NCBI RefSeq assembly: GCF_004116625.1
Contig: NZ_NXIE01000004.1
Location: forward strand, 1-64,000
Reading direction: 5' to 3'
Source of the DNA: Halarcobacter mediterraneus
Lineage (GTDB): Bacteria > Campylobacterota > Campylobacteria > Campylobacterales > Arcobacteraceae
Length of the DNA stretch: 64,000 nt
Shown: piece by piece, positions 4,095 through 41,515 of the stretch
Layout: every line of letters begins with the position of its first letter
How positions within the stretch are numbered: position 1 is the stretch's first letter
The notes under the pieces: generated by a model
Databases searched by the model: none
The model's input: only the letters and a program-made list of their open reading frames with translations
Told to the model about the DNA's origin: nothing
Made by a program: the position numbers and the translations under genes

Positions 4095-6137
4095 TTATTC
4101 TACTTCTTTTTTTACGAGTCCTGCCTCTTTTAAGAAAGGTGAATGAACAAAGTCCATTTTTTTTATTTTGTCATATTTTGCATAACTTAAATATAATACA
4201 TCCTTTGCTCTTGTTACAGCTACATAAAATAATCTTCTTTCTTCTTCTAAGCTTCCACCTTTACTCATTAGTTTTCTGTTTGGAAATCTTCCATCCATCA
4301 AATCAATTACAAAAACCTCTTTAAACTCTAAACCTTTACTTGCATGAACAGATAAAAGATTTACTCCATCTCCTTCACTCATCTCTCCTCCTCCAAGTAT
4401 CATTGAGTTTACAAATTTTGATAAATCTTGAAAGTTTCTAGCAAGGTTTTTTAAAAGCATTGCTTTTCTATTTATTTTTGCATTAGCTTTTGTTTTTTGT
4501 ATCATATTCACAGTACCGTCTTTTTGTGTAGCTCTTTTGGTAGCTAAAAAATCTTTTAGTCTAGAGTACATCATTGAAGAAGTAACTGTTGTAATTAAAG
4601 ACTCAGGAACTTTTGTTCTTCTTATTTGTTTTACAAGTAAGTAAAAATCATAAATATATTTTGCTCCATCAACTGTTAGTTTTGGATGCTTTAAAATTGG
4701 ATTAGATAAAAATGCTTCCTCAAAACCACAATCTTTAAACTTAGAAACTGAACCTAGTTCAATAAAATCATCAAATAGCCCAAGCTGAATATTTTTTACT
4801 TTATTTGACTGGTAAGGATTTTTTATATCTTGATTTGGGGTATATAGGCCTTTAAATAAATCTCCATCACCAAGTTTAACTAAGGCATCAAAAATATCTT
4901 TAGCAATAGCTTTCCCTATGCCTTTACCATGTTCTAGTACATGAATAAAAGCCATCATATCATTGTGTGATAGTTGCATAACTAAAATATCAAGTACAAA
5001 TTTAACTTCAACAGAATCAAAAAATGACATTCCACCTTTTCTTTTAGCTGGAATGCCATATTCTCTTAAATTTGCTTCAATTCCATCTGCACTAGAGTTA
5101 TTTCTAAATATAATTGCAATATCACTATGTGCTGTTGAACTTTGAGATATTTTTTCTGAGATATGATGATATTGTGAAAATAATTCTGTAAACTCTAAAA
5201 GCTTTGGAGGAATAGAAACATCTGTTCTCATAACTTGTAATTGTTTTTCATAGATTCTTTCATTATGTTCAATTACTTTTGTAGCCAAATCTAAAATAGG
5301 TTTACTAGAACGATAGTTTTTTCTTAATGTATAAACATTTGAACCTTCATATCTTGAGTCAAAAGTTGAAATTATCCCTATATCTGAACCATTAAAGGCA
5401 TATATACTTTGGTCATAATCTCCTACACAAAAAAGAGATTTAGGTTTAAAAGCATCAAGTAATCTTCCTTGTAAAGGGTTTGTATCTTGATATTCATCAA
5501 CTAATATTTCTTTAAAATTAAATTCTTCTTCTTTTAACGTATCAAGCATAATAGTAAGTAAGTCATCAAAGTTTGCATAACCATATTTTGTTTTTAGTTC
5601 ATTAAACTCTAAAACAACATCATCATAAATTGCTGTATATATTTCATGGTCAGGGTTTTTATTTTTTATCCATTCCTCAAACCCTTCCCCTTCATTTGAG
5701 TTAAGGTATAGTGAGTACATATCATAAAGATATCCACCATCATATGGGTTAACTCCATCTTCTCTTTCATAAAAAACTCTTTTTTCATAAAGTGACTTAA
5801 AAAGTGTTTTTAATTCATTTGGTTGTTTTAGTTTAATATTTTTATTTAATTGTTTTAAAAGTTTATATGAAACAGAATGGAAAGTTCCAGCCATAATGCT
5901 ACTTGCAATATCTTTTCCAAAAAATTTAGCAACTCTTTGAACCATTTCAGCAGCAGCTTTATTTGTAAATGTTAATAATAAAATTTCATTTGGTTTTATA
6001 CCAGTGTTAATTAAGTTTGCAATTCTTCCAACAATAGTTGAAGTTTTTCCTGTTCCTGCACTTGCAATAATAAGGTTAAATCCTTGTTTACAGGTTGCAG
6101 CTTCAAGTTGTTCTTTATTTAAATTAGATAGGGGCAT
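4095..6137 (-). CDS. UvrD/Rep-family ATP-dependent DNA helicase
   Basis: This 680-residue superfamily 1A helicase should unwind DNA 3' to 5' in repair or replication restart. Motif Q/I is at the N-terminus (LNKEQLEAAT, then Walker A ASAGTGKT at residues 25-32). Motif II is DEYQDTN at 214-220, followed by motif III (FCVGDYDQSIYAFNGSD). Near the C-terminus are LLSVHASKGLEF and RRLFYVAVTRAKD, motifs V and VI. The internal region is shorter and more divergent than in E. coli UvrD, as in the Campylobacter PcrA-like helicase. It appears to be a single-gene unit on the minus strand, downstream of the candidate small RNA and its terminator. Confidence 0.92.
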   Translation of the reverse strand: MPLSNLNKEQLEAATCKQGFNLIIASAGTGKTSTIVGRIANLINTGIKPNEILLLTFTNKAAAEMVQRVAKFFGKDIASSIMAGTFHSVSYKLLKQLNKNIKLKQPNELKTLFKSLYEKRVFYEREDGVNPYDGGYLYDMYSLYLNSNEGEGFEEWIKNKNPDHEIYTAIYDDVVLEFNELKTKYGYANFDDLLTIMLDTLKEEEFNFKEILVDEYQDTNPLQGRLLDAFKPKSLFCVGDYDQSIYAFNGSDIGIISTFDSRYEGSNVYTLRKNYRSSKPILDLATKVIEHNERIYEKQLQVMRTDVSIPPKLLEFTELFSQYHHISEKISQSSTAHSDIAIIFRNNSSADGIEANLREYGIPAKRKGGMSFFDSVEVKFVLDILVMQLSHNDMMAFIHVLEHGKGIGKAIAKDIFDALVKLGDGDLFKGLYTPNQDIKNPYQSNKVKNIQLGLFDDFIELGSVSKFKDCGFEEAFLSNPILKHPKLTVDGAKYIYDFYLLVKQIRRTKVPESLITTVTSSMMYSRLKDFLATKRATQKDGTVNMIQKTKANAKINRKAMLLKNLARNFQDLSKFVNSMILGGGEMSEGDGVNLLSVHASKGLEFKEVFVIDLMDGRFPNRKLMSKGGSLEEERRLFYVAVTRAKDVLYLSYAKYDKIKKMDFVHSPFLKEAGLVKKEVE

Positions 6138-6203
6138 TTATTTAATATTCTTTTGTAGTATTTTCATTTGGCGAATATTAGCATAATGATTCTTATTTTT
6201 TGA

Positions 6204-6240
6204 GCAAAAAAAAAGCCCCTTTGAAAAGGAGCTTTTTTTA
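6204..6240 (-). terminator. Rho-independent terminator (bidirectional potential)
   Basis: An AAAAAAGC/GCTTTTTT outer stem and a CCTTT/AAAGG inner stem, separated by one C-A mismatch, close on a short TGA loop. T tracts flank both ends, so it could work in either orientation. On the minus strand it ends in nine T. There is no plus-strand gene upstream, so the natural client is the proposed minus-strand small RNA. It also insulates the helicase gene from readthrough. Confidence 0.75.
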
Positions 6241-6328
6241 CACACAAGGAAACAAAATTTGGAAAACTTTAAAATAATTCGCAATTTTAAAATATGTTAA
6301 GAAGATTTCGCGCTTCTTCTTAATCCAT
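6204..6328 (-). ncRNA. Candidate small RNA with its own promoter and terminator
   Basis: The 335-base gap between the helicase (6137) and the next gene (6473) has no open frame but has transcript-like structure on the minus strand. A TATAAT box (6335-6340, read in reverse) predicts a start near 6326-6328. The RNA would begin with a hairpin whose arms are the perfect 8-base repeats TTAAGAAG (6297-6304 and 6316-6323). It would end in a strong GC-capped hairpin followed by nine or more T (6204-6240). Predicted length is about 125 nt. I see no 6S, SRP, RNase P or tmRNA signature. The sequence elements are visible; the RNA itself is an inference. Confidence 0.4.
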
Positions 6329-6472
6329 ATGAAAATTATAATAGACGAGAATTAACTGAAATAAAATAAAAAGTTAATGATTAGTTAATATATACGGTAT
6401 TTATCTAATAATTTCATATAAATAATTAATTAATATATAATATGATAATATTCAAAAAAATAGGAGTTTTTT

Positions 6473-7207
6473 GTGAGTAAGTTTTTAAAAAAAAATAGAA
6501 AAAGTTTATTTAATATTGCTTTAATATTTATAGCTATTTTTTTTGGAGAAGATATTTTAAGAAGTCTTCCTTCAGATATATTTCAACTCCCAATTATTAT
6601 TGGATTAACGGTCTATGTAATATATACTATTAGAAAGTGGAGAAGAAAAAGTAAAGAATCATTTGAAGCAAAGTCTATAGCACTTCATAAAAATAGAAAT
6701 GATTTTATGAAAAAAAACAATAGAGAAATTTGGTTTTTTAATTCTTATAGAGGAATTGCTTTTAATAATGAAACAAAAAAATTTGAATTTCTTGATGTAG
6801 AAAAATGTGAAGAACAAGATACCAGTGATGAGGAATCTAGTGAAGGTTTTTCAACTCATTATAAAAAAGATTTTTTTACGAAGAATAAAGCAACCTTTTA
6901 TCCTATTAAAGAAATTAGTTTTAATGACACTTATATAACAACACCTACTTCGACAAAAAAAGCTTTTGGTTCACAATACCACCAAAGCAAAACATCTACA
7001 ATAAATAATATTATTATTGTCTTAGAAAACAATACAAAAGTTAATTTTGAAAATGATTATTTTATAAGTGAACAATGGGAGTATGTTGGAAGTAGAAATA
7101 AAGAAATACTTAAAACTTTTTTAAATATTAATACCGAAGGAAAAGAATTCCCAAATTTTAAATCTTTTTATGAATATTATGGTTTTAAAGGTTTAAGAAA
7201 TTCTTAA
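6473..7207 (+). CDS. Hypothetical protein with two N-terminal membrane segments
   Basis: The 244-residue protein starts at GTG 6473, with AGGAG seven bases upstream. Two hydrophobic helices occupy roughly residues 13-30 and 38-53, with a short loop (GEDILRSLPSD). A basic patch (RKWRRKSK) follows, which by the positive-inside rule places the large C-terminal part in the cytoplasm. That part (residues 60-244) is soluble and mixed, with a cluster of Asp/Glu/Ser near 115-130 and several aromatic residues; no catalytic motif is apparent. It converges on the hipT gene 24 bases away. I do not recognise the family. It may belong to the accessory island. Confidence 0.6.
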   Translation: MSKFLKKNRKSLFNIALIFIAIFFGEDILRSLPSDIFQLPIIIGLTVYVIYTIRKWRRKSKESFEAKSIALHKNRNDFMKKNNREIWFFNSYRGIAFNNETKKFEFLDVEKCEEQDTSDEESSEGFSTHYKKDFFTKNKATFYPIKEISFNDTYITTPTSTKKAFGSQYHQSKTSTINNIIIVLENNTKVNFENDYFISEQWEYVGSRNKEILKTFLNINTEGKEFPNFKSFYEYYGFKGLRNS

Positions 7208-11901: not shown

Positions 11902-14081
11902 TTACACGCATCTTTTTTTAGTTTATTTAAAGTTCCAAATACTCTTAATGATTCTATTTCTACAGCTTTAGCTTTTTCATTTAATATCTCATTATCAGCT
12001 TTATTTGCATTTGCATTTATAAGTTCCTGAAGTTTTTGTTTTAAACTAGCAATTAAATTTTTAAGTTCATCTATTGTTTCATTACAACTATTTGGATTAA
12101 TTTGTGTATATGTTTCAATCCATTCCAAAATTGAGTTACAACCTTTTGTCTCCCAAGTTTTATATGAACCTAGTTTTGAATAAACGTCATCTTTTAATCC
12201 AAGAACATTAACTTTTAATTTTGCAGTATCATAAACTAAATCTACATTACATACTTCTTCCCTTGATTCTTCAAGGAAGCTAGCTCTTGAAGCTGCTGTT
12301 ACTAAAGAGTCTGACATATGGGCTATATTTGTAGACATTTTAGAAATTTGTTCTGCAATTTGTGCATTTTGTTGAGTTGCTTGATCAAGTAAATTAACTG
12401 CATCATTAATTTGAACAATACCAGCTTCTTGCTCTTTTGAAGCTGTTGCAACTTGCTCAATTTTTTCGAGTGTAAATTTAATATTTTCATTTAACTCTTC
12501 ATATCCATTGATCATATTATCAGAAATTTCTTTACCACTATTTGTTTTTTCTGTAGCTTTTTCAACTAAAGCTTTTATTTCTTTAGCCGCTTCAGCAGAT
12601 CTATTTGCTAAATTTCTTACTTCTCCTGCAACAACAGCAAAACCTTTTCCAGCTTCTCCTGCAGTTGCTGCTTCAACAGCTGCATTTAAAGAAAGTATAT
12701 TTGTTTGGAAAGCTATTTGGTCAATTACTTCAATTGCTTCATTAATTGAGCTTACTTGAGAATTTATATCATTCATTGCAACAGCTGTTTCATTTGCTAA
12801 ATTATGTCCATTTTTTGCAGATGTTGTAACATAACTTGCTAGGTCTGACATCTCTCTTGATGCTTCAGTATTACCTTTTATATTTGCAGTAATTTGTTCT
12901 AAAGCAGCAGCTGTTTCTTCTAATGATGCTGCTTGCTGATTTGAAGAGGTTGAAAGTTTATTAGATGCGTTTGACAAGGTATGAGTATTTTCTTTTAAAG
13001 AATCACCTGTATTCATTATCATAGCTAAAATCTCAGACGTATTATTTCCAACAAGTTTAATTCCTGCTGCTAAAGAGCCTAAGTCCCCGTATATTCCTTT
13101 GTCATTGATTTTATAATCAAATTTTGATTCAGAATAATTTTTTAAAGTGTCATTAATTCTATCAAGAGTTTCTTTTGTATGATTAATCATTGTATTAAGT
13201 TTATTTTTTAAATCTTCAACATATGGATTTGCTGCTGTAGATTGAACTTGATAAACAAAAAAACCATTTCCTGTTTTTTCTAAAATATCATTGGCTTCTT
13301 CAATTACAATTTCATCTTTTTTCAATCCTTCTCTTACTTTATCCATATATGAGTTAAATAGTCCTGCAACTTCTCCAATTTCATCTTTAGAATTTACATT
13401 TAGTTTTATACTAGGGTCATTTGATTTAAGTAAGTTTCGGAATCCTTCTTTTAGTGTAGAAATAGGTTTTGTAGCTCTTTTTACAATAATAAAAATTAGA
13501 GCAATTGTAACCCAGCCAAATAGTGTAGACATTGTTAATATTTCAATTAAAAGTGATCCAATTTTATCATCAGAAGCATCTAATGAAAAAGTTAAGTCCA
13601 TTATCCCTATTACATCACCTTTTTGTTGGTTAGCATGACACATTAAACATTCTTGTGTAGCAATCATAGGTTTTATCATCCTTAATGCATGGCCGTTTTC
13701 ATCATTAGTTTCAAGTAGTTGATTTTGTTTTGTTTCAAAAGATTTCAAAATATCAGGATCTTTTGTAAATTTAGCTCCAGGAGAATACATATCTATAAGA
13801 GGTTGACTTTTTGCAATTACTAGTTTTTTTACGCCATTAATTGTTCTTGCTTCATCTTCTGCTTTTTTTATTTGGGCAGGATCTCCTGTATTCATAGCAT
13901 TTCTTAAACTTTGGAACATCGCAGTGTTCAACATATCTAAATTTTGTTTTGTCGTAGCAATGGAGTCTGACCTAACTTGTTCTGTAGTAAAATATGTTAC
14001 AATAAGACTTGATAAAGACATTAAGACAAATAAAGAAATTATTATTTTGTTACTTATTTTTTTTGTAATTAAATCAAACAT
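11895..14081 (-). CDS. Methyl-accepting chemotaxis protein with periplasmic CxxCH haem motif
   Basis: The start is ATG 14081, which has AAGGG seven bases upstream; an in-frame GTG six bases earlier lies inside that site. Counting from that GTG, a membrane helix covers about 15-33, the periplasmic sensor 34-178, a second helix 180-203 and a HAMP domain 204-258. The sensor contains CLMCH (Cys147, Cys150, His151), a c-type haem attachment motif, in a DUF3365/Tll0287-like domain. The signalling hairpin ([20 protein letters not shown] and [16 protein letters not shown]) is complete. A C-terminal extension of about 120 residues ([16 protein letters not shown]) resembles chemoreceptor zinc-binding domains but lacks the usual His residues. 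It probably senses redox, oxygen or NO. Confidence 0.9.
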
Positions 14082-14177
14082 AGTCACACCCTTAATATTA
14101 AGCTTTTTTATTATATAATGAATATTATTTATTATATATAAAAAGTAAGATTAAATTTAGAAATTTGAAAGAAAAAG

Positions 14178-14738
14178 ATGATTGTAGGCATAGAAGGTAT
14201 TATTGAAAAAAAAGAACCAACTTTTTTAAATATTAATGTAAATGGTCTCATTTACGAAATTTTTGTCTCTGTTAATTGTAGCTCAAAAATCACTGAAAGT
14301 AAAGTAAAACTTCATACAACATATATTATTCGAGAGGATTCTCAAACCCTTTATGGATTTTTAGATCCAAATGAGAAAAAACTTTTTGATACAGTTATTA
14401 AAATAAATGGAGTAGGACCTAAAGTAGCCTTGGCTATTTGTTCTACTTTTACTCCAAACTCTTTTGCACAAATTGTAAATGAAAATGATGTATCTATGTT
14501 AAAAAGAGTACCAGGGATTGGACCAAAAGGAGCAAGTAGAATTCTAGTAGAACTTTCAGGTTTTATTGTAGATGATGGAAATGATTCAGACTCCTCTTCA
14601 AATAGTTCACTAGAAGCTGCACTTGCTTTAGAATCTTTAGGTTTTAAAAAAGATATAATTTCAAAAGTACTTAGGTCTTGTACTGCAACGAATACTAGTG
14701 ATTTAGTAAAACAAGCATTAAAATTATTACAAAAATAA
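14178..14738 (+). CDS. ruvA: Holliday junction DNA helicase subunit RuvA
   Basis: RuvA binds four-way junctions and loads RuvB for branch migration. The 186-residue protein has the three expected parts: an OB-fold N-terminus ([24 protein letters not shown]), two helix-hairpin-helix motifs ([12 protein letters not shown] and [16 protein letters not shown]), and a Ser-rich linker ([13 protein letters not shown]) before the RuvB-binding C-terminal domain ([16 protein letters not shown]). The start ATG follows GAAAGAAAAAG. It heads the plus-strand run ruvA, ddl, hydrolase, murF, HIT, def. Confidence 0.96.
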
Positions 14739-14776
14739 AAAAGCCTTTTTGATTGTAGGCATTCAAAGGAGTATTA

Positions 14777-15811
14777 GTGAAAATAGGAATAGTTTTTGGT
14801 GGGAAGTCATATGAGCATGAAATATCAATTGTTTCAGCTATCGCTATGAAAGATGTTTTAAAAGAAGAATTGGTTTATATTTTTTGTGATACGAATAGAG
14901 ATTTTTATCATATTCCTAATGATAAAATTAAATCAAAATTGTTTAGTAGCGGTGAATATAAAAAATGTGATATTTTGAATTTTTCAAAAAATGGTTTTTC
15001 AAAAAAAGCAATATTTGCTTCAAAAGCTTTTGAAGTTGATGTTATTTTAAATATAACTCATGGTGCCGATGGAGAAGATGGTTTTTTTGCTTCTTTATTT
15101 GAATTTGCAAATATACCTTACATTGGTCCTAGAAAAGCAGCTTGTAGTGTAAGTTTTAACAAGTTTCTAACTAAAGGTTATGCTAAAAGTGTAGGTATAA
15201 AAGCAGTTGATTATAAGTATTATACTAAAAATGATAAAGTAGAACTTCAAGATTTCCCTGTGATTATTAAACCAATTACTTTAGGAAGTTCTATTGGTGT
15301 GTCAATTGTAAAATCACAAGATGAGTTAGAATATGCTTTAGATGTAGCTTTTGAATTTGATGAAGCAGTTATTATTGAACCCTTTATTGCTGGAATTAAA
15401 GAATATAATTTAGCAGGAGCAAAAATAAATGGTGAATTTGTTTTCTCAATTATTGAGGAACCACAAAAAGCAGAATTTTTAGATTTTGATAAAAAATATT
15501 TAGATTTTGCAAGAACTTCAGCTGCATTAGAAGCAGATATTACAGAGGAATTAAAGACAAAAATAAAAGACTCTTTTAAAGCAATTTATAATAATACTTT
15601 TGAAGGTTCTTTGATAAGATGTGATTTTTTTGTTCAAAATAATGAAGTATATTTAAATGAAATAAATCCAGTTCCTGGTTCTATGGCGAACTATTTATTT
15701 GAAGATTTTAATTCAATATTAATTTCACTAGCTAAATCTTTACCAAAACAAAAAGATATTAAGATATCATATGAATATGTAAATAAAATACAAGCATCAA
15801 AAGGTAAATAA
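14777..15811 (+). CDS. ddl: D-alanine--D-alanine ligase
   Basis: Ddl makes the D-Ala-D-Ala dipeptide for peptidoglycan. The 344-residue protein starts at GTG 14777 after AAGGAG. ATP-grasp features are present: VFGGKSYEHEISIVSA at the N-terminus, HGADGEDGFFASLFE, KPITLGSSIGVS, and NEINPVPGSM for metal and substrate binding. The murF-type ligase that uses its product is two genes downstream, and alr, which supplies D-alanine, is at 51254-52276. Confidence 0.96.
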   Translation: MKIGIVFGGKSYEHEISIVSAIAMKDVLKEELVYIFCDTNRDFYHIPNDKIKSKLFSSGEYKKCDILNFSKNGFSKKAIFASKAFEVDVILNITHGADGEDGFFASLFEFANIPYIGPRKAACSVSFNKFLTKGYAKSVGIKAVDYKYYTKNDKVELQDFPVIIKPITLGSSIGVSIVKSQDELEYALDVAFEFDEAVIIEPFIAGIKEYNLAGAKINGEFVFSIIEEPQKAEFLDFDKKYLDFARTSAALEADITEELKTKIKDSFKAIYNNTFEGSLIRCDFFVQNNEVYLNEINPVPGSMANYLFEDFNSILISLAKSLPKQKDIKISYEYVNKIQASKGK

Positions 15812-15813
15812 AA

Positions 15814-16533
15814 TTGGCTTTAAAAAGCATAGAGGTTTTAGATAAAAAATTTAATATTTCTTATGAAATTGTAAATCCAACTGAAAAAAAGGATATAGTT
15901 ATTCTTCATGGCTGGGGTTCAAATAAAGAGATTATGAAACAAGCATTTGGTAATCTTTTGCAAGACTTTAGACATATATATGTAGATATGCCAGGTTTTG
16001 GAAAAAGCTCAAATGACTATGTTTTAACTACAAAAGATTATTCACTTATCGTAAAGAAGTTTTTGGAAGTTTTAAATACAAATGTTATAGCAATTGTAGG
16101 ACACTCTTTTGGTGGTAAAGTTGCAACTTTAATAAACCCAGATAATCTTATACTTCTTAGTTCTGCTGGAATTTTAGAAAAGAAAAGTATGAAAACCAAA
16201 ATCAAAATATTTTTTGCTAAACTTTTAAATACTTTTGGATTATCAAAATTAACAAAAGTATTTAGAAGTGATGATGTACAAAAAATGAGTGAAAATATGT
16301 ATGAGACTTTTAAAAATGTAGTAAATGAAGATTTTTCATTTATATTTGAGTCTTATGAAAAAAAAGCAATTATTTTTTGGGGTAAATCTGATTTGGCTAC
16401 AACTCTTACCTCTGGAGAAAAAATTCATAAACTTATAAAAAATAGTAGTTTTGAGGTTTATGAAGGTGATCATTATTTCTTTTTAAAACATAAAAAAGAT
16501 ATTTGTAAAAAAATTGAAAATGGAATCAAATAA
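15814..16533 (+). CDS. Alpha/beta hydrolase
   Basis: The 239-residue protein starts at TTG 15814, two bases after ddl. It has the oxyanion-hole segment HGWGSNKE, the nucleophile elbow GHSFGG (Ser in VGHSFGGKVA), an Asp candidate in FWGKSDLATT and a terminal His in EGDHYFF, so the catalytic triad is complete. There is no signal peptide. It lies between ddl and murF and overlaps murF by one base, an arrangement I associate with other Campylobacterota. This suggests a link to cell-wall precursor metabolism, but the substrate is unknown. Confidence 0.85.
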   Translation: MALKSIEVLDKKFNISYEIVNPTEKKDIVILHGWGSNKEIMKQAFGNLLQDFRHIYVDMPGFGKSSNDYVLTTKDYSLIVKKFLEVLNTNVIAIVGHSFGGKVATLINPDNLILLSSAGILEKKSMKTKIKIFFAKLLNTFGLSKLTKVFRSDDVQKMSENMYETFKNVVNEDFSFIFESYEKKAIIFWGKSDLATTLTSGEKIHKLIKNSSFEVYEGDHYFFLKHKKDICKKIENGIK

Positions 16534-38050: not shown

Positions 38051-38851
38051 ATGATTAAATTTATATTCGTATTGTTAGCCTTATTCTCTTTTCTAAATGC
38101 AAAAATACATTTAGTAGTAACTTATCCTATTCATAAAAAACTTATTGAAAAAATAGCAAAAGATGATTTTGTTATTCATGTAGTTGAAGATGGAAATACT
38201 AGTTTTGCAAAAAAACGAAATCTTCATAAAAATGAAATTTATTACAGTAATGTTTATCTTACATATGGTTTAGAGAAAGAAGAAAGATATATTAAACTTT
38301 TTAAAAATAGAAACAGATATATTAATATTATTAATCTCACTAAAAATATAAAAAAAGATATAGTTAATGGTAAGGAAAATCCCTACGTCTGGATGGATCC
38401 TATCTTAGTGAGAAAACTATCCAAAAATATCTTTGAAGAATTAAGTAAATTAAAATCCTACAGAAAAGATTTCTTTAAAGAAAATTATGAAAACTTTTTG
38501 ATGGAATTAGATAGATTATTTTTATCTTTAAAGAAAAGACTTGAAAAAAATGAATTTTATAATATATATGTTTATGAACCTTATTGGCACTATTTTGCAA
38601 AAAGATTTAGATTAAATCTTTATTATAAAGAGAATAGATATACAAACTTAGATGAAGTCCCACAACTAGTGGAATTTTCAAAAAAACATAATATAAAAAA
38701 ACTTTTAATTAAAGAAGAAAGCTCTTACGAACAAGCTCAATCTTTAGCTTCAAATATTAATGCAGATATTATCGAGCATGATATCACAAAATATAACTGG
38801 CGTGTAAATCTTCAATCTCTTGTTAGAAAGATTTCGAAATATAAAAGATAA
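38051..38851 (+). CDS. ZnuA/TroA-like periplasmic metal-binding protein, with altered ligand motif
   Basis: The 266-residue protein has a signal peptide (cleavage likely after LNA, residue 17) and the cluster A-I binding-protein fold: LVVTYPIHKKLIEKIA at the start, NPYVWMDPILVRKLSKNI in the middle, and YEPYWHYFAKRFRL and LLIKEESSYEQAQSLA later. In ZnuA the middle motif is normally PH-[IV]-WxDP, with a metal-binding His; here it is Pro111-Tyr112. No ABC permease or ATPase gene is adjacent. It may bind another ligand or a metal differently. It lies 17 bases after aspS and is probably cotranscribed. Confidence 0.7.
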   Translation: MIKFIFVLLALFSFLNAKIHLVVTYPIHKKLIEKIAKDDFVIHVVEDGNTSFAKKRNLHKNEIYYSNVYLTYGLEKEERYIKLFKNRNRYINIINLTKNIKKDIVNGKENPYVWMDPILVRKLSKNIFEELSKLKSYRKDFFKENYENFLMELDRLFLSLKKRLEKNEFYNIYVYEPYWHYFAKRFRLNLYYKENRYTNLDEVPQLVEFSKKHNIKKLLIKEESSYEQAQSLASNINADIIEHDITKYNWRVNLQSLVRKISKYKR

Positions 38852-38865
38852 TTTATCAACTGAGT

Positions 38866-38893
38866 AGTTTTTATACAATCTGTATAAAAAACT
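38866..38893. repeat. Inverted repeat upstream of the Cache-CheW gene
   Basis: AGTTTTTATACA (38866-38877) faces TGTATAAAAAACT (38881-38893) across a three-base spacer, with one extra A in the right arm. There is no T run after it in the plus direction. It might be an operator for the downstream gene or a weak terminator for the upstream one. Confidence 0.4.
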
Positions 38894-38941
38894 GATTTAA
38901 ATATATTGTATCATTCTCTTATGAAAGATAGGAGAAATATC

Positions 38942-41515
38942 ATGTCAAGAAATCTAGTAGAATATAAAGGAATAAAAGTAAAAAAAGAACTTTATCCTCT
39001 TATTAAGCATATAGAAGATGTTGATAAGTATAGGGAAGAGTTAGGAAGATTAAGTTCTTCTTGGGATATTTTTGCACTTTTAGGTCAATTAGGTGATATT
39101 AATATTGATATTGGTAAAACAAAAGAAAACTTCTTAAATTTAACAACAACTCTTCTTAATCACTTAAGTGAAGAAACTGTTAAAAAATCTACTACTGAAA
39201 TGAAATTTAAAGCTCAAGTTGCAATTGATATTGTAAATAGAAATCTTTTTGAAAGAACAGCTGACATAGGCTTCTTAGCAACTGATGATGATATTAGAGA
39301 CTTTTTACAAAACTTTGTTTCAAGATACAACAGTGATAGCGTAGAATTAAAAGAAGATATTCAAAAAAGATTTTTGGAGTATGTTCAAAAATACTCAGTT
39401 TATTATGATATTGTTTTAGCTGATACTAAAGGGAAAATTGTAGCAAGATTAGATGATAATATAAAAATTGATTGGTTAAATAAAGAATTTACTCAAAAAG
39501 TAATTAACTCAAGTGATGAATATGTAGAAACTTTTCAATACCATGATTTTATTCCACACAAAAAACAGTCTTTAGTATATTCATATAAAGTAACAGAAAC
39601 TAACGATTCCGACTCAGAGGTTTTAGGTGTACTTTGTCTTTGTTTTAGATTTAGAGATGAGATGGAAGGAATTTTTAACAATCTAATTGAAACAAGAAAT
39701 AAAGAGGCTTTAACTATTTTAGATGAAGATGGAATTGTAATTGCTTCAAGTGATAAAGACTATATCCCTTTAGAATCAAAATTGGAAATTGTTTTAGATG
39801 AAGAGTATAAAATTGTCTCTTTTTGTGGTAGAGATTATATTGCAAAAACTTGTATAACAAATGGGTATCAAGGGTTTAAAGGTCTTAAGTGGTATGGACA
39901 TATTATGGTTCCTTTAGAATATGCTTTTTTAAGTAATCAAAATGATAGACCAGAAGTAGATGATGGGATTATTGAATCAATGATGAACAATGAACAACAC
40001 TTTTCAAAAGATTTAAAAGATGTATTTAATAAAAGTAAAACTATTCAAGAAAATCTTGGACGTGTTATTTGGAATGGTAATGTTGCACAAAGTAAACTAA
40101 ACTCTTCAAATAGAGAGTTTTCAAAATCTCTTTTAAGTGAGATTGGAGTTACAGGAGTTAAAGCAAACTCTTCCTTAAGTAATCTAAATCAAACAATTAT
40201 TAACTCTATTTTAAAAGATAGTGAGTTTCTATCTTCCCTTGCCCTTGATATTATGGATAGAAATCTTTATGAAAGAGCAAATGATTGTAGATGGTGGGCA
40301 CTAACTTCCTTCTTTAGAAAAGCATTTGATGAGTATGAATCTTTGGAATATAAAGAAAAAGAGATCTCTTCTATTTTGAAGTATATAAATGATTTATATA
40401 CAGTTTATACAAATCTACTTGTATTTGATAAAAGTGGAAAAATAATTGCTGTATCAAATGAAAAAGAAAACTATTTAGTAGGAAAAGTTTTACCTCAAAA
40501 GTGGGTTGGACAAACTCTAAAGTTAACTGACACCTCAAAGTATTGTGTTTCAGATTTTGAAGAGACTAATCTTTATTCAAATGAGTCAACATACATTTAT
40601 TGTGCTGCAATTAGGTCTTTTGAAAATCAAGATGAAATAAATGGTGGGATAGCTATTGTATTTGATTCTACAGCTGAATTTAAAGCTATGTTAGAAGATA
40701 GTTTACCCAAAGATAAAGATGGAGTATTTGCTTTATTTGCATCAAGGGATAAAAGAGTTATTTCTTCAACAAATAAAGATATAGAAGTAAACTCAATTAT
40801 TGATATAGAAGATAAATTTTTTGAATTAAAAAATGGTGAACAACTAAGTGAAATTATTGAAATAGATAATAAATATTATGCCTTAGGTGTTAGATGTTCT
40901 CAAGGATATAGAGAGTACAAAAATGCTAAAGATGACTATGTTAATGATGTTTTTTGTTTAGTGTTTAACTATATAGGAGATAAAAACTTTGATGAAAAAA
41001 GGCATGAGCAAAAATCAAAGTTTTTAAATTCAAGTACAAAAAAGATATTTACAGATACTTGTATTGAGTTAGCAACTTTTCACTTAGGAAATAAGTTTCT
41101 TGCAGTAGAAGCTAAGAATGTTATTGAATCTATCTCTATAGATAAATTAGAAGAATCAATTGATATGGATAAGAACAATCCCTTTAAAGGAATGGTTCTA
41201 CATAAAGATACTTTAATCTCTGTTCTTGATATCAGAAGTTTTATCAAAGAGGAAATTGGCGATGAAGAGTTAAATACAATTATTTTATTAGAATATGATA
41301 AGGATAATAAAGAACATTGTATAGGAATATTAGTATCATCATTAGAAAGTGTTTCAGTTGTAGAAAAAGACTCTATTCAACAAATTCAAAGTCACTTTTT
41401 GGGAACTGGAACTTTGGTTGAAAGTTTAGCTGATATTAGTGATTATGAAGAATCTCAAGTTGCAATGGTTCTTGATATTAAAAAGATTGATGACAATTTA
41501 ACAAAGAAGGTTTAA
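38942..41515 (+). CDS. Soluble tandem Cache-domain protein with C-terminal CheW domain
   Basis: The start MSRNLVEYKG at 38942 has AGGAG upstream, while the longer frame from 38906 lacks one. The 857-residue protein has no signal peptide or membrane segment. Two similar sensor halves can be aligned: DIVNRNLFERTADIGFLATD begins the first and DIMDRNLYERANDCRWWALT the second, each followed by a PAS-like Cache fold (DIVLADTKGKIVARLDD; NLLVFDKSGKIIAVSN). The last 150 residues are a CheW domain (LATFHLGNKFLAVEAKNVIE, FKGMVLHKDTLISVLDIRS, SLESVSVV). It probably couples a cytoplasmic signal to the chemotaxis array through CheA. Confidence 0.75.
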   Translation: MSRNLVEYKGIKVKKELYPLIKHIEDVDKYREELGRLSSSWDIFALLGQLGDINIDIGKTKENFLNLTTTLLNHLSEETVKKSTTEMKFKAQVAIDIVNRNLFERTADIGFLATDDDIRDFLQNFVSRYNSDSVELKEDIQKRFLEYVQKYSVYYDIVLADTKGKIVARLDDNIKIDWLNKEFTQKVINSSDEYVETFQYHDFIPHKKQSLVYSYKVTETNDSDSEVLGVLCLCFRFRDEMEGIFNNLIETRNKEALTILDEDGIVIASSDKDYIPLESKLEIVLDEEYKIVSFCGRDYIAKTCITNGYQGFKGLKWYGHIMVPLEYAFLSNQNDRPEVDDGIIESMMNNEQHFSKDLKDVFNKSKTIQENLGRVIWNGNVAQSKLNSSNREFSKSLLSEIGVTGVKANSSLSNLNQTIINSILKDSEFLSSLALDIMDRNLYERANDCRWWALTSFFRKAFDEYESLEYKEKEISSILKYINDLYTVYTNLLVFDKSGKIIAVSNEKENYLVGKVLPQKWVGQTLKLTDTSKYCVSDFEETNLYSNESTYIYCAAIRSFENQDEINGGIAIVFDSTAEFKAMLEDSLPKDKDGVFALFASRDKRVISSTNKDIEVNSIIDIEDKFFELKNGEQLSEIIEIDNKYYALGVRCSQGYREYKNAKDDYVNDVFCLVFNYIGDKNFDEKRHEQKSKFLNSSTKKIFTDTCIELATFHLGNKFLAVEAKNVIESISIDKLEESIDMDKNNPFKGMVLHKDTLISVLDIRSFIKEEIGDEELNTIILLEYDKDNKEHCIGILVSSLESVSVVEKDSIQQIQSHFLGTGTLVESLADISDYEESQVAMVLDIKKIDDNLTKKV

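Follow-up and report, generated by a model that had tools for sequence, protein, structure and literature searches.

Can a chemosensory array take a signal from inside the cell through a sensor that is also its adaptor? The question is raised by a gene of Halarcobacter mediterraneus in the first 64,000 nucleotides (nt) of contig NZ_NXIE01000004.1 (assembly GCF_004116625.1; this whole stretch is called the window here). It encodes a protein of 857 residues in which two Cache domains are followed by a CheW domain. Bacterial Cache domains mostly face outwards as sensors, and CheW is commonly presented as a passive linker. The window protein is read here, with moderate confidence, as a soluble sensor-adaptor of the chemosensory array that is made under nitrogen limitation and carries an intracellular signal to CheA. 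This reading rests on the two Cache halves, the CheW domain, the lack of a membrane segment, the single clade of CheW-bearing forms and the nitrogen context of the relatives.

The reading frame is intact (ATG at 38942, stop ending at 41515, 857 codons), and the location and length given by the original prediction were right; the reverse complement of the same span has stops throughout in the frame translated. Pfam dCache_1 scores 74.4 bits on the whole protein, in two stretches (cut-off 45). Taken alone, half A reaches 54.3 bits against dCache_1 (PF02743), over the cut-off, and half B 35.2 bits, under it, though half B is homologous to half A (hhalign probability 99.7, E 2.5e-25, 242 columns, two 30-row profiles). 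The motif DI-x2-RNL-x-ER-x2-D, said beforehand to open each of two homologous halves, is present twice, as DIVNRNLFERTAD (residues 96–108) and as DIMDRNLYERAND (residues 436–448). Residues D96, R100, E104, R105 and D108 are invariant in all 36 aligned rows of the CheW-bearing form. Directly after DIMDRNLYERAND come C449, kept in 34 of the 36 rows, and R450, W451 and W452, which like Y489, S505, Y551, Y553, G655, Y656 and R657 of half B are the same in every row. Conservation along the protein peaks in the first subdomain of half B (mean pairwise identity 0.52 among 14 representatives). A search of the PDB with the single sequence gave no match, and the PDB matches of the half profiles were weak, the best being the NagS sensor for half A (E 0.011) and WalK for half B (0.0021).

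In one paper, 78% of Cache domains were predicted to be extracellular (PMC4822843). By hydropathy, the window protein departs from the extracytoplasmic location usual for this superfamily: Kyte-Doolittle means over 19 residues peak at 1.02, and at 0.80 within the first 40 residues. No membrane segment or signal peptide is apparent from Kyte-Doolittle hydropathy, used here without a dedicated predictor, and on this absence the original prediction had staked its case. A periplasmic receptor was ruled out, the hydrophobic segment being absent. Pfam gives no match to the signalling domain of methyl-accepting chemotaxis proteins (MCP; PF00015). An N-terminus derived from an MCP was also rejected, as hhalign alignments to MCP tips covered only the start of the Cache motif and not the tip.

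The C-terminus was expected to fold as CheW, and both its sequence and a low-confidence model match that domain. CheW (PF01584) scores 36.8 bits on the whole protein and 41.5 bits on the C-terminus alone (cut-off 23.5), and is matched by all 36 aligned C-termini (the window protein and 35 relatives) at E 2e-5 or better. The profile of the domain also picks up six CheW sequences with solved structures (E 5.4e-10 to 9.5e-7). With a model of the domain built from four sequences, of low confidence (mean predicted local distance difference test, pLDDT, 51), Foldseek returned 18 matches at E < 0.001, all of them CheW or CheA entries, the best at 6.9e-8. CheW ends the chain: there is no Pfam match to a receiver domain (Response_reg), and no match to the S-adenosylmethionine (SAM)-binding domain of CheR in Pfam or NCBIfam at E up to 1. 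In a tree of CheW domains, two CheV-type domains are nearest the fused ones with weak support (89/87); three of the four rows labelled CheA in that tree are actually the neighbouring free CheW (identical rows), and 8 of 29 listed domains were left out. The tree gives a hint only that the fused CheW domain may derive from CheV.

Four CheW domains are encoded in the genome of the window's species: those of a free CheW, of CheA, of a CheV-like protein and of the window protein. A single CheA was identified by its dimerisation domain, and is the only candidate kinase found. Among 298 genomes of the same order, CheA is present in 246, comprising all 54 with a homologue of the window protein and 192 of the 244 without one (lists compared by eye; Fisher p 1.5e-5, kinship not corrected). 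Near 3 of the 16 genes of a CheW-less form of the protein, described below, lies a CheV-like gene, directly after the gene in L049 and one gene away on the same strand in L043 and L044 (the receiver in L044 was assigned by eye). Of the proposal that the protein is a soluble sensor linked to the array, the solubility, the two Cache halves and the CheW domain have stood, and for the proposed link, which would bypass a receptor, the one CheA of the genome is a candidate partner. The nitrogen link and the CheW-less relatives come to light only from other genomes and are absent from the original prediction.

The same architecture was sought among relatives and found. The 54 genomes with a homologue divide into 36 with the CheW form, 16 with a form of about 620–680 residues that ends just before CheW, and 2 with remnants. 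Counting G050, whose gene holds a CheW match but is interrupted by a stop and truncated where the contig ends, raises the first group to 37 and leaves 15 that have just the CheW-less form. Neither group takes in G216, with decayed pieces, or G220, with a match to the CheW part only. The 36 aligned rows are the window protein, 32 loci and three named loci, including second copies of three genomes, and are not identical with the 36 genomes; left out were the broken genes L011/L071 and L021/L050, the copies of G171, G193, G203 and G282, and the pieces of G050 and G216. A tree of the Cache part places all 36 rows of the CheW form in one clade (100/100) and the 16 CheW-less rows on the other side; one of the latter (L039) is cut by a contig end, which leaves its CheW-less status unproven. 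A single clade fits one fusion event.

Some copies have decayed. In L071 (5289–9362) the fused gene is interrupted by an open frame of 391 residues that looks transposase-like by eye (5790–6965), in L050 and L191 a frame break or a stop disrupts it, and on contig C6 of G216 only decayed pieces are left. Half B was also searched for in 298 genomes of the phylum. At E up to 1e-6 it had matches in 51, many of them belonging to another family, f13, where the frames span some 650–750 residues. Ten f13 stretches from eight genomes (L151–L160) were read, and encode tandem-Cache proteins of about 650–700 residues, apparently without CheW (the one scanned with Pfam had none). No neighbouring chemotaxis gene was obvious by eye in these ten, save an MCP-like piece upstream in L156.

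One line of evidence for nitrogen control is a palindrome, TGTATA-N5-TATACA, upstream of the fused genes in the window's family. It was sought with up to 2 mismatches at 60–110 nt before the ATG of 21 fused genes (family f1 of the search and three named loci) and of 236 neighbouring genes from 17 loci. The site precedes 17 of the 21, the window gene included, at 77–101 nt before the ATG and exactly in 8 cases, and 3 of the 236 neighbours (Fisher p 4e-20, a value that counts orthologues repeatedly on both sides and is not corrected for kinship). One of these three neighbours is the NifA-like gene of L052, where the site is exact. The window gene apart, 16 of 20 fused family genes carry the site with 0 to 2 mismatches, and L033, the closest relative, has it with 1 mismatch at 83 nt before the ATG.

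Elsewhere in the genomes the exact site also stands before genes of nitrogen metabolism, among others. It exceeded a reversed control in all five genomes counted (4, 6, 8, 21 and 8 sites vs 1, 1, 1, 3 and 0). Genes were read around 29 exact sites of three genomes (4/4 in the genome of the window, 6/6 in G131, 19/21 in G070). Among these genes are ammonium transporters with PII after them, a glutamine synthetase, an ethanolamine ammonia-lyase, a NifA-like regulator, a urea-binding protein and a molybdopterin oxidoreductase of the formate dehydrogenase or nitrate reductase kind. When ten site-linked proteins were scanned, GlnA, EutB and UrtA scored over their cut-offs, Amt, PII and NifA under them, and the rest were weaker or unmatched. 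Of the four exact sites in the genome of the window, three precede two amt genes (two of these also precede a divergent operon) and one precedes glnA.

The amt region of this genome (L098; G000:C2:559000-566500) holds two amt-PII pairs with palindromic sites. Its divergent operon encodes a protein of 286 residues, an NtrC-like protein of 252 residues, with a weak sigma-54 domain and a Fis-type helix-turn-helix, and a GlnD-like protein; these genes are a candidate nitrogen regulator set. In L063, a hybrid histidine kinase gene (12153–14447) with a one-mismatch site at 93 nt precedes an urtA-like gene (14544–15818), which suggests nitrogen control of a sensor kinase. In family f16 (L013, L015, L022, L023 and L024) the best matches, 78–97 nt upstream, drift towards TGATTA-N5-TAATCA, as if the site of the regulator had changed. 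Within the window itself, one match to TGTATA-N5-TATACA at up to 1 mismatch lies inside the window gene and is within chance.

Some relatives are encoded among nitrogen fixation genes. In genus g31, possibly Sulfurospirillum, each of the 11 CheW forms has nifN within about 10 kb, and the copies of G149, G240 and G282 directly follow it; among the neighbours scanned in two g31 genomes, nifN and a NifX-associated family scored over cut-off, and nifE and nifX just under. A NifA-like gene (512 bits, cut-off 529) ends 60 nt ahead of the second copy in G281. In G096 the second copy is part of a same-strand run, downstream of genes that are NifA-like (486 bits, cut-off 529) and NifX-like (99 bits, cut-off 112), with nifH 16 kb away, and in G089 the gene stands between nifH (15 kb) and nifE. 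Copies in nif islands occupy two places in the tree, and the remaining CheW forms, as far as read, lie outside such islands. A nifH over cut-off was found in 65 of the 298 genomes, 28 of the 36 with the CheW form and 37 of the 262 others (29/37 vs 36/261 with G050 as a CheW form; Fisher p 1e-14, not kinship-corrected and inflated by related genomes, as 11 of the 36 belong to one genus). For the family the nitrogen link is strong; for the window copy it is weaker.

How new is this arrangement? The original prediction put it forward as the best candidate for an undescribed signalling architecture. As a principle this claims too much: in 2023, CheWS of Treponema denticola, in which CheW is joined to a SAM sensor resembling CheR, was presented as the first chemotaxis sensor of the CheW-fused kind to be characterised (PMC10653840). 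Like the window protein, CheWS joins CheW to a soluble sensor for an intracellular signal, and it was modelled within the CheA-CheW ring. Its CheR-like sensor binds SAM and follows CheW, whereas in the window protein two Cache halves precede it, and it belongs to Treponema, the window protein to Campylobacterota with a nitrogen gene context. The same paper counts 30 further previously undescribed CheW architectures, 12 with signal-input domains, and a Cache-CheW entry may be among the 30 (PMC10653840). No description of a tandem-Cache-CheW protein or of its nitrogen link was found in the searchable literature, most subscription papers and supplements being outside its reach. In the main text of a study of chemosensory evolution in Campylobacterota the word Cache is absent (PMC9321776).

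Other known proteins share single features with the window protein. CheV also combines a CheW domain with a regulatory domain, which is a receiver in CheV and a tandem dCache here. Two proteins of Pseudomonadota (WP_060148510 and WP_318784668) have, like the window protein, a dCache with the motif DRNLYER.CDVRWWA and no signal peptide, but consist of one Cache and an MCP signalling tip in 346 and 342 residues, in place of two Caches and CheW. Plasmid records gave nine weaker matches. Of three regions fetched from them, two hold these small proteins, in which a short MCP tip is followed by one dCache: L148 (2525–3550) and L149 (2261–3298), from Methylobacterium and Burkholderia plasmids (342 and 346 residues). 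In hhalign comparisons the protein of L149 matches half B at E 7e-22 and half A at 3e-19; that of L148 has one stretch of hydropathy 1.75, which makes its solubility less sure. AerC of Azospirillum brasilense is a PAS-type chemoreceptor, not known to be a CheW fusion, and FrzB of Myxococcus xanthus is not known to carry a sensor domain. As a taxis sensor, AerC is reported to be polar in nitrogen-fixing conditions and cytosolic with ammonium (cited in PMC10613068). FrzB is described as a divergent CheW-like protein in a chemosensory system, as the window protein would be, set apart by the lack of CheA binding (PMC6952110).

If the protein is a sensor-adaptor made under nitrogen limitation, it might work as follows. 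When fixed nitrogen runs short, the gene would be switched on by a nitrogen regulator, for which the small NtrC-like protein encoded next to amt is a possible candidate (weak scores). Judging from their conservation, the Cache halves, and half B most of all, would bind a small molecule of the cytoplasm or react to redox state; C449 (34/36 rows) leaves redox sensing possible. The CheW domain would take the CheW-type place beside CheA, and ligand binding could then change CheA activity or the make-up of the array. In this way swimming bias would track nitrogen or metabolic state inside the cell, with no membrane receptor dedicated to the task. We infer nitrogen control in the window's species from the relatives and the degenerate site before the window gene. 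A more specific version is doubtful: Campylobacterota would possess a nitrogen-conditional chemotaxis input in the form of a receptor-less adaptor, induced together with genes for ammonium uptake, glutamine synthetase or nitrogenase. The tandem Cache pockets of this adaptor, lying in the cytoplasm, would sense a nitrogen or redox metabolite of the cell and adjust the array via CheW.

A number of observations weigh against the sensor-adaptor reading. The site of the window gene is degenerate, with 2 mismatches to TGTATA-N5-TATACA, and no site with up to 2 mismatches was found at 60–110 nt upstream of the fused genes of L008, L009, L010 and L052. The partly overlapping arrangement TATACA-N3-TGTATA is the sole match in the window at up to 1 mismatch, and as 42 of 100 shuffles also had one, it is within chance. 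Several genes behind exact sites have no clear nitrogen role by eye, and the kinship left in the site and nifH comparisons tells in the same direction. Most genomes with nifH (37 of 65) are without the CheW form, and no nifH over cut-off was found in the genome of the window. By eye, no chemotaxis gene is seen adjoining the window gene. The full-length AlphaFold model, built from four rows, has a pLDDT of 30 and gives no usable structure. The CheW domain itself is the least conserved part of the protein (mean identity 0.30 among 14 representatives). The arginine of the NLRG motif has a functional role in CheW. Where the free CheW of the same genome reads GLINLRGEVVPILDIR the window protein reads GMVLHKDTLISVLDIR, with K755 in the position of that arginine, which is missing in all 36 rows (K 18, N 11, E 3, D 2, M 1, Y 1). 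Because the arginine is absent and the domain so poorly conserved, standard CheW binding may be altered.

These last features also suit a different explanation, which we consider unlikely: the CheW domain would have no normal array function and would act as a spoiler or spacer that dilutes CheW-CheA rings at low nitrogen and lowers taxis, the Cache halves serving only as a gate. FrzB provides a precedent for a divergent CheW without CheA binding (PMC6952110), and the CheW domain here diverges fast; however, both the CheW profile and the fold signal are retained, and CheA accompanies the homologue in 54 of 54 genomes. The same co-occurrence argues against an output other than chemotaxis, in which the CheW domain would dock the sensor on another partner in nitrogen metabolism and leave taxis untouched. 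The nif islands and sites of the relatives, and the lack of an adjoining chemotaxis gene seen at the window copy, would be expected of such a protein. With CheV-like genes near some CheW-less relatives, and an MCP signalling tip on the two single-Cache relatives in Pseudomonadota, it seems quite improbable.

The protein could also be an ordinary CheW-type adaptor with structural Cache halves, the nitrogen context of its relatives being irrelevant to the window copy. Its housekeeping neighbours, in an arrangement that by eye is kept in the family, its degenerate site and the absence of nifH from the genome would all agree with this. Against it, conservation is higher in the Cache halves, which hold many invariant aromatic and charged residues, than in the CheW domain; moreover, the degenerate site lies at the usual distance of the relatives' sites, and just 3 of 236 neighbours reach 2 mismatches or fewer. 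Such an adaptor is held to be improbable, and the sensor-adaptor made under nitrogen limitation is preferred.

Features of the gene and its upstream region in the window (residue numbers refer to the 857-residue protein).
Feature	Position	Strand	Basis or remark
Degenerate operator-like site TGAGTA-N5-TATACA	38861..38877	+	81 nt before ATG, 2 mismatches
Extra half-site TGTATA	38881..38886	+	With 38872-38877 forms TATACA-N3-TGTATA
-10-like TATCAT	38909..38914	+	By eye; aligns with TATAAT of relatives
Ribosome-binding-site-like AGGAGA	38930..38935	+	Precedes ATG 38942
Gene for 857-residue soluble tandem-dCache protein with C-terminal CheW domain	38942..41515 (including stop)	+	Open reading frame, Pfam, hydropathy
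N-terminal region, residues 1-80	38942..39181	+	Without alignment to MCP signalling tip
dCache half A, residues ~81-335	39182..39946	+	dCache_1 82-318; conservation
Motif DIVNRNLFERTAD, residues 96-108	39227..39265	+	In half A
Linker joining halves, residues ~336-415	39947..40186	+	
dCache half B, residues ~416-680	40187..40981	+	
Motif DIMDRNLYERAND, residues 436-448	40247..40285	+	In half B
CheW domain, residues ~705-852	41054..41497	+	Pfam 710-849, profile search, Foldseek

An alternative start, TTG at 38906, would lengthen the protein by 12 residues; the ATG is favoured because the -10-like element comes just after this TTG and AGGAGA stands ahead of the ATG. No sigma-54-like promoter was found upstream of the gene with a regular expression. 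Against the gene of L033, which is 95% identical, the nonsynonymous rate (dN) is 0.024 and the synonymous rate (dS) 0.367, so the gene is under purifying selection. Housekeeping genes flank the window copy. The gene upstream (38051–38851) encodes a secreted-looking protein of 266 residues and is found in the same place in most family loci read; by eye, it seems to diverge fast while its neighbours do not.

The CheW-bearing clade and its CheW-less relatives, some of them by CheV-like genes, provide a case of how inputs may join an array. An inward-facing Cache protein with CheW, encoded among nitrogen genes, would show a route from metabolism into navigation. If Campylobacterota do have the nitrogen-conditional input described above, nitrogen hunger would rewire their navigation.

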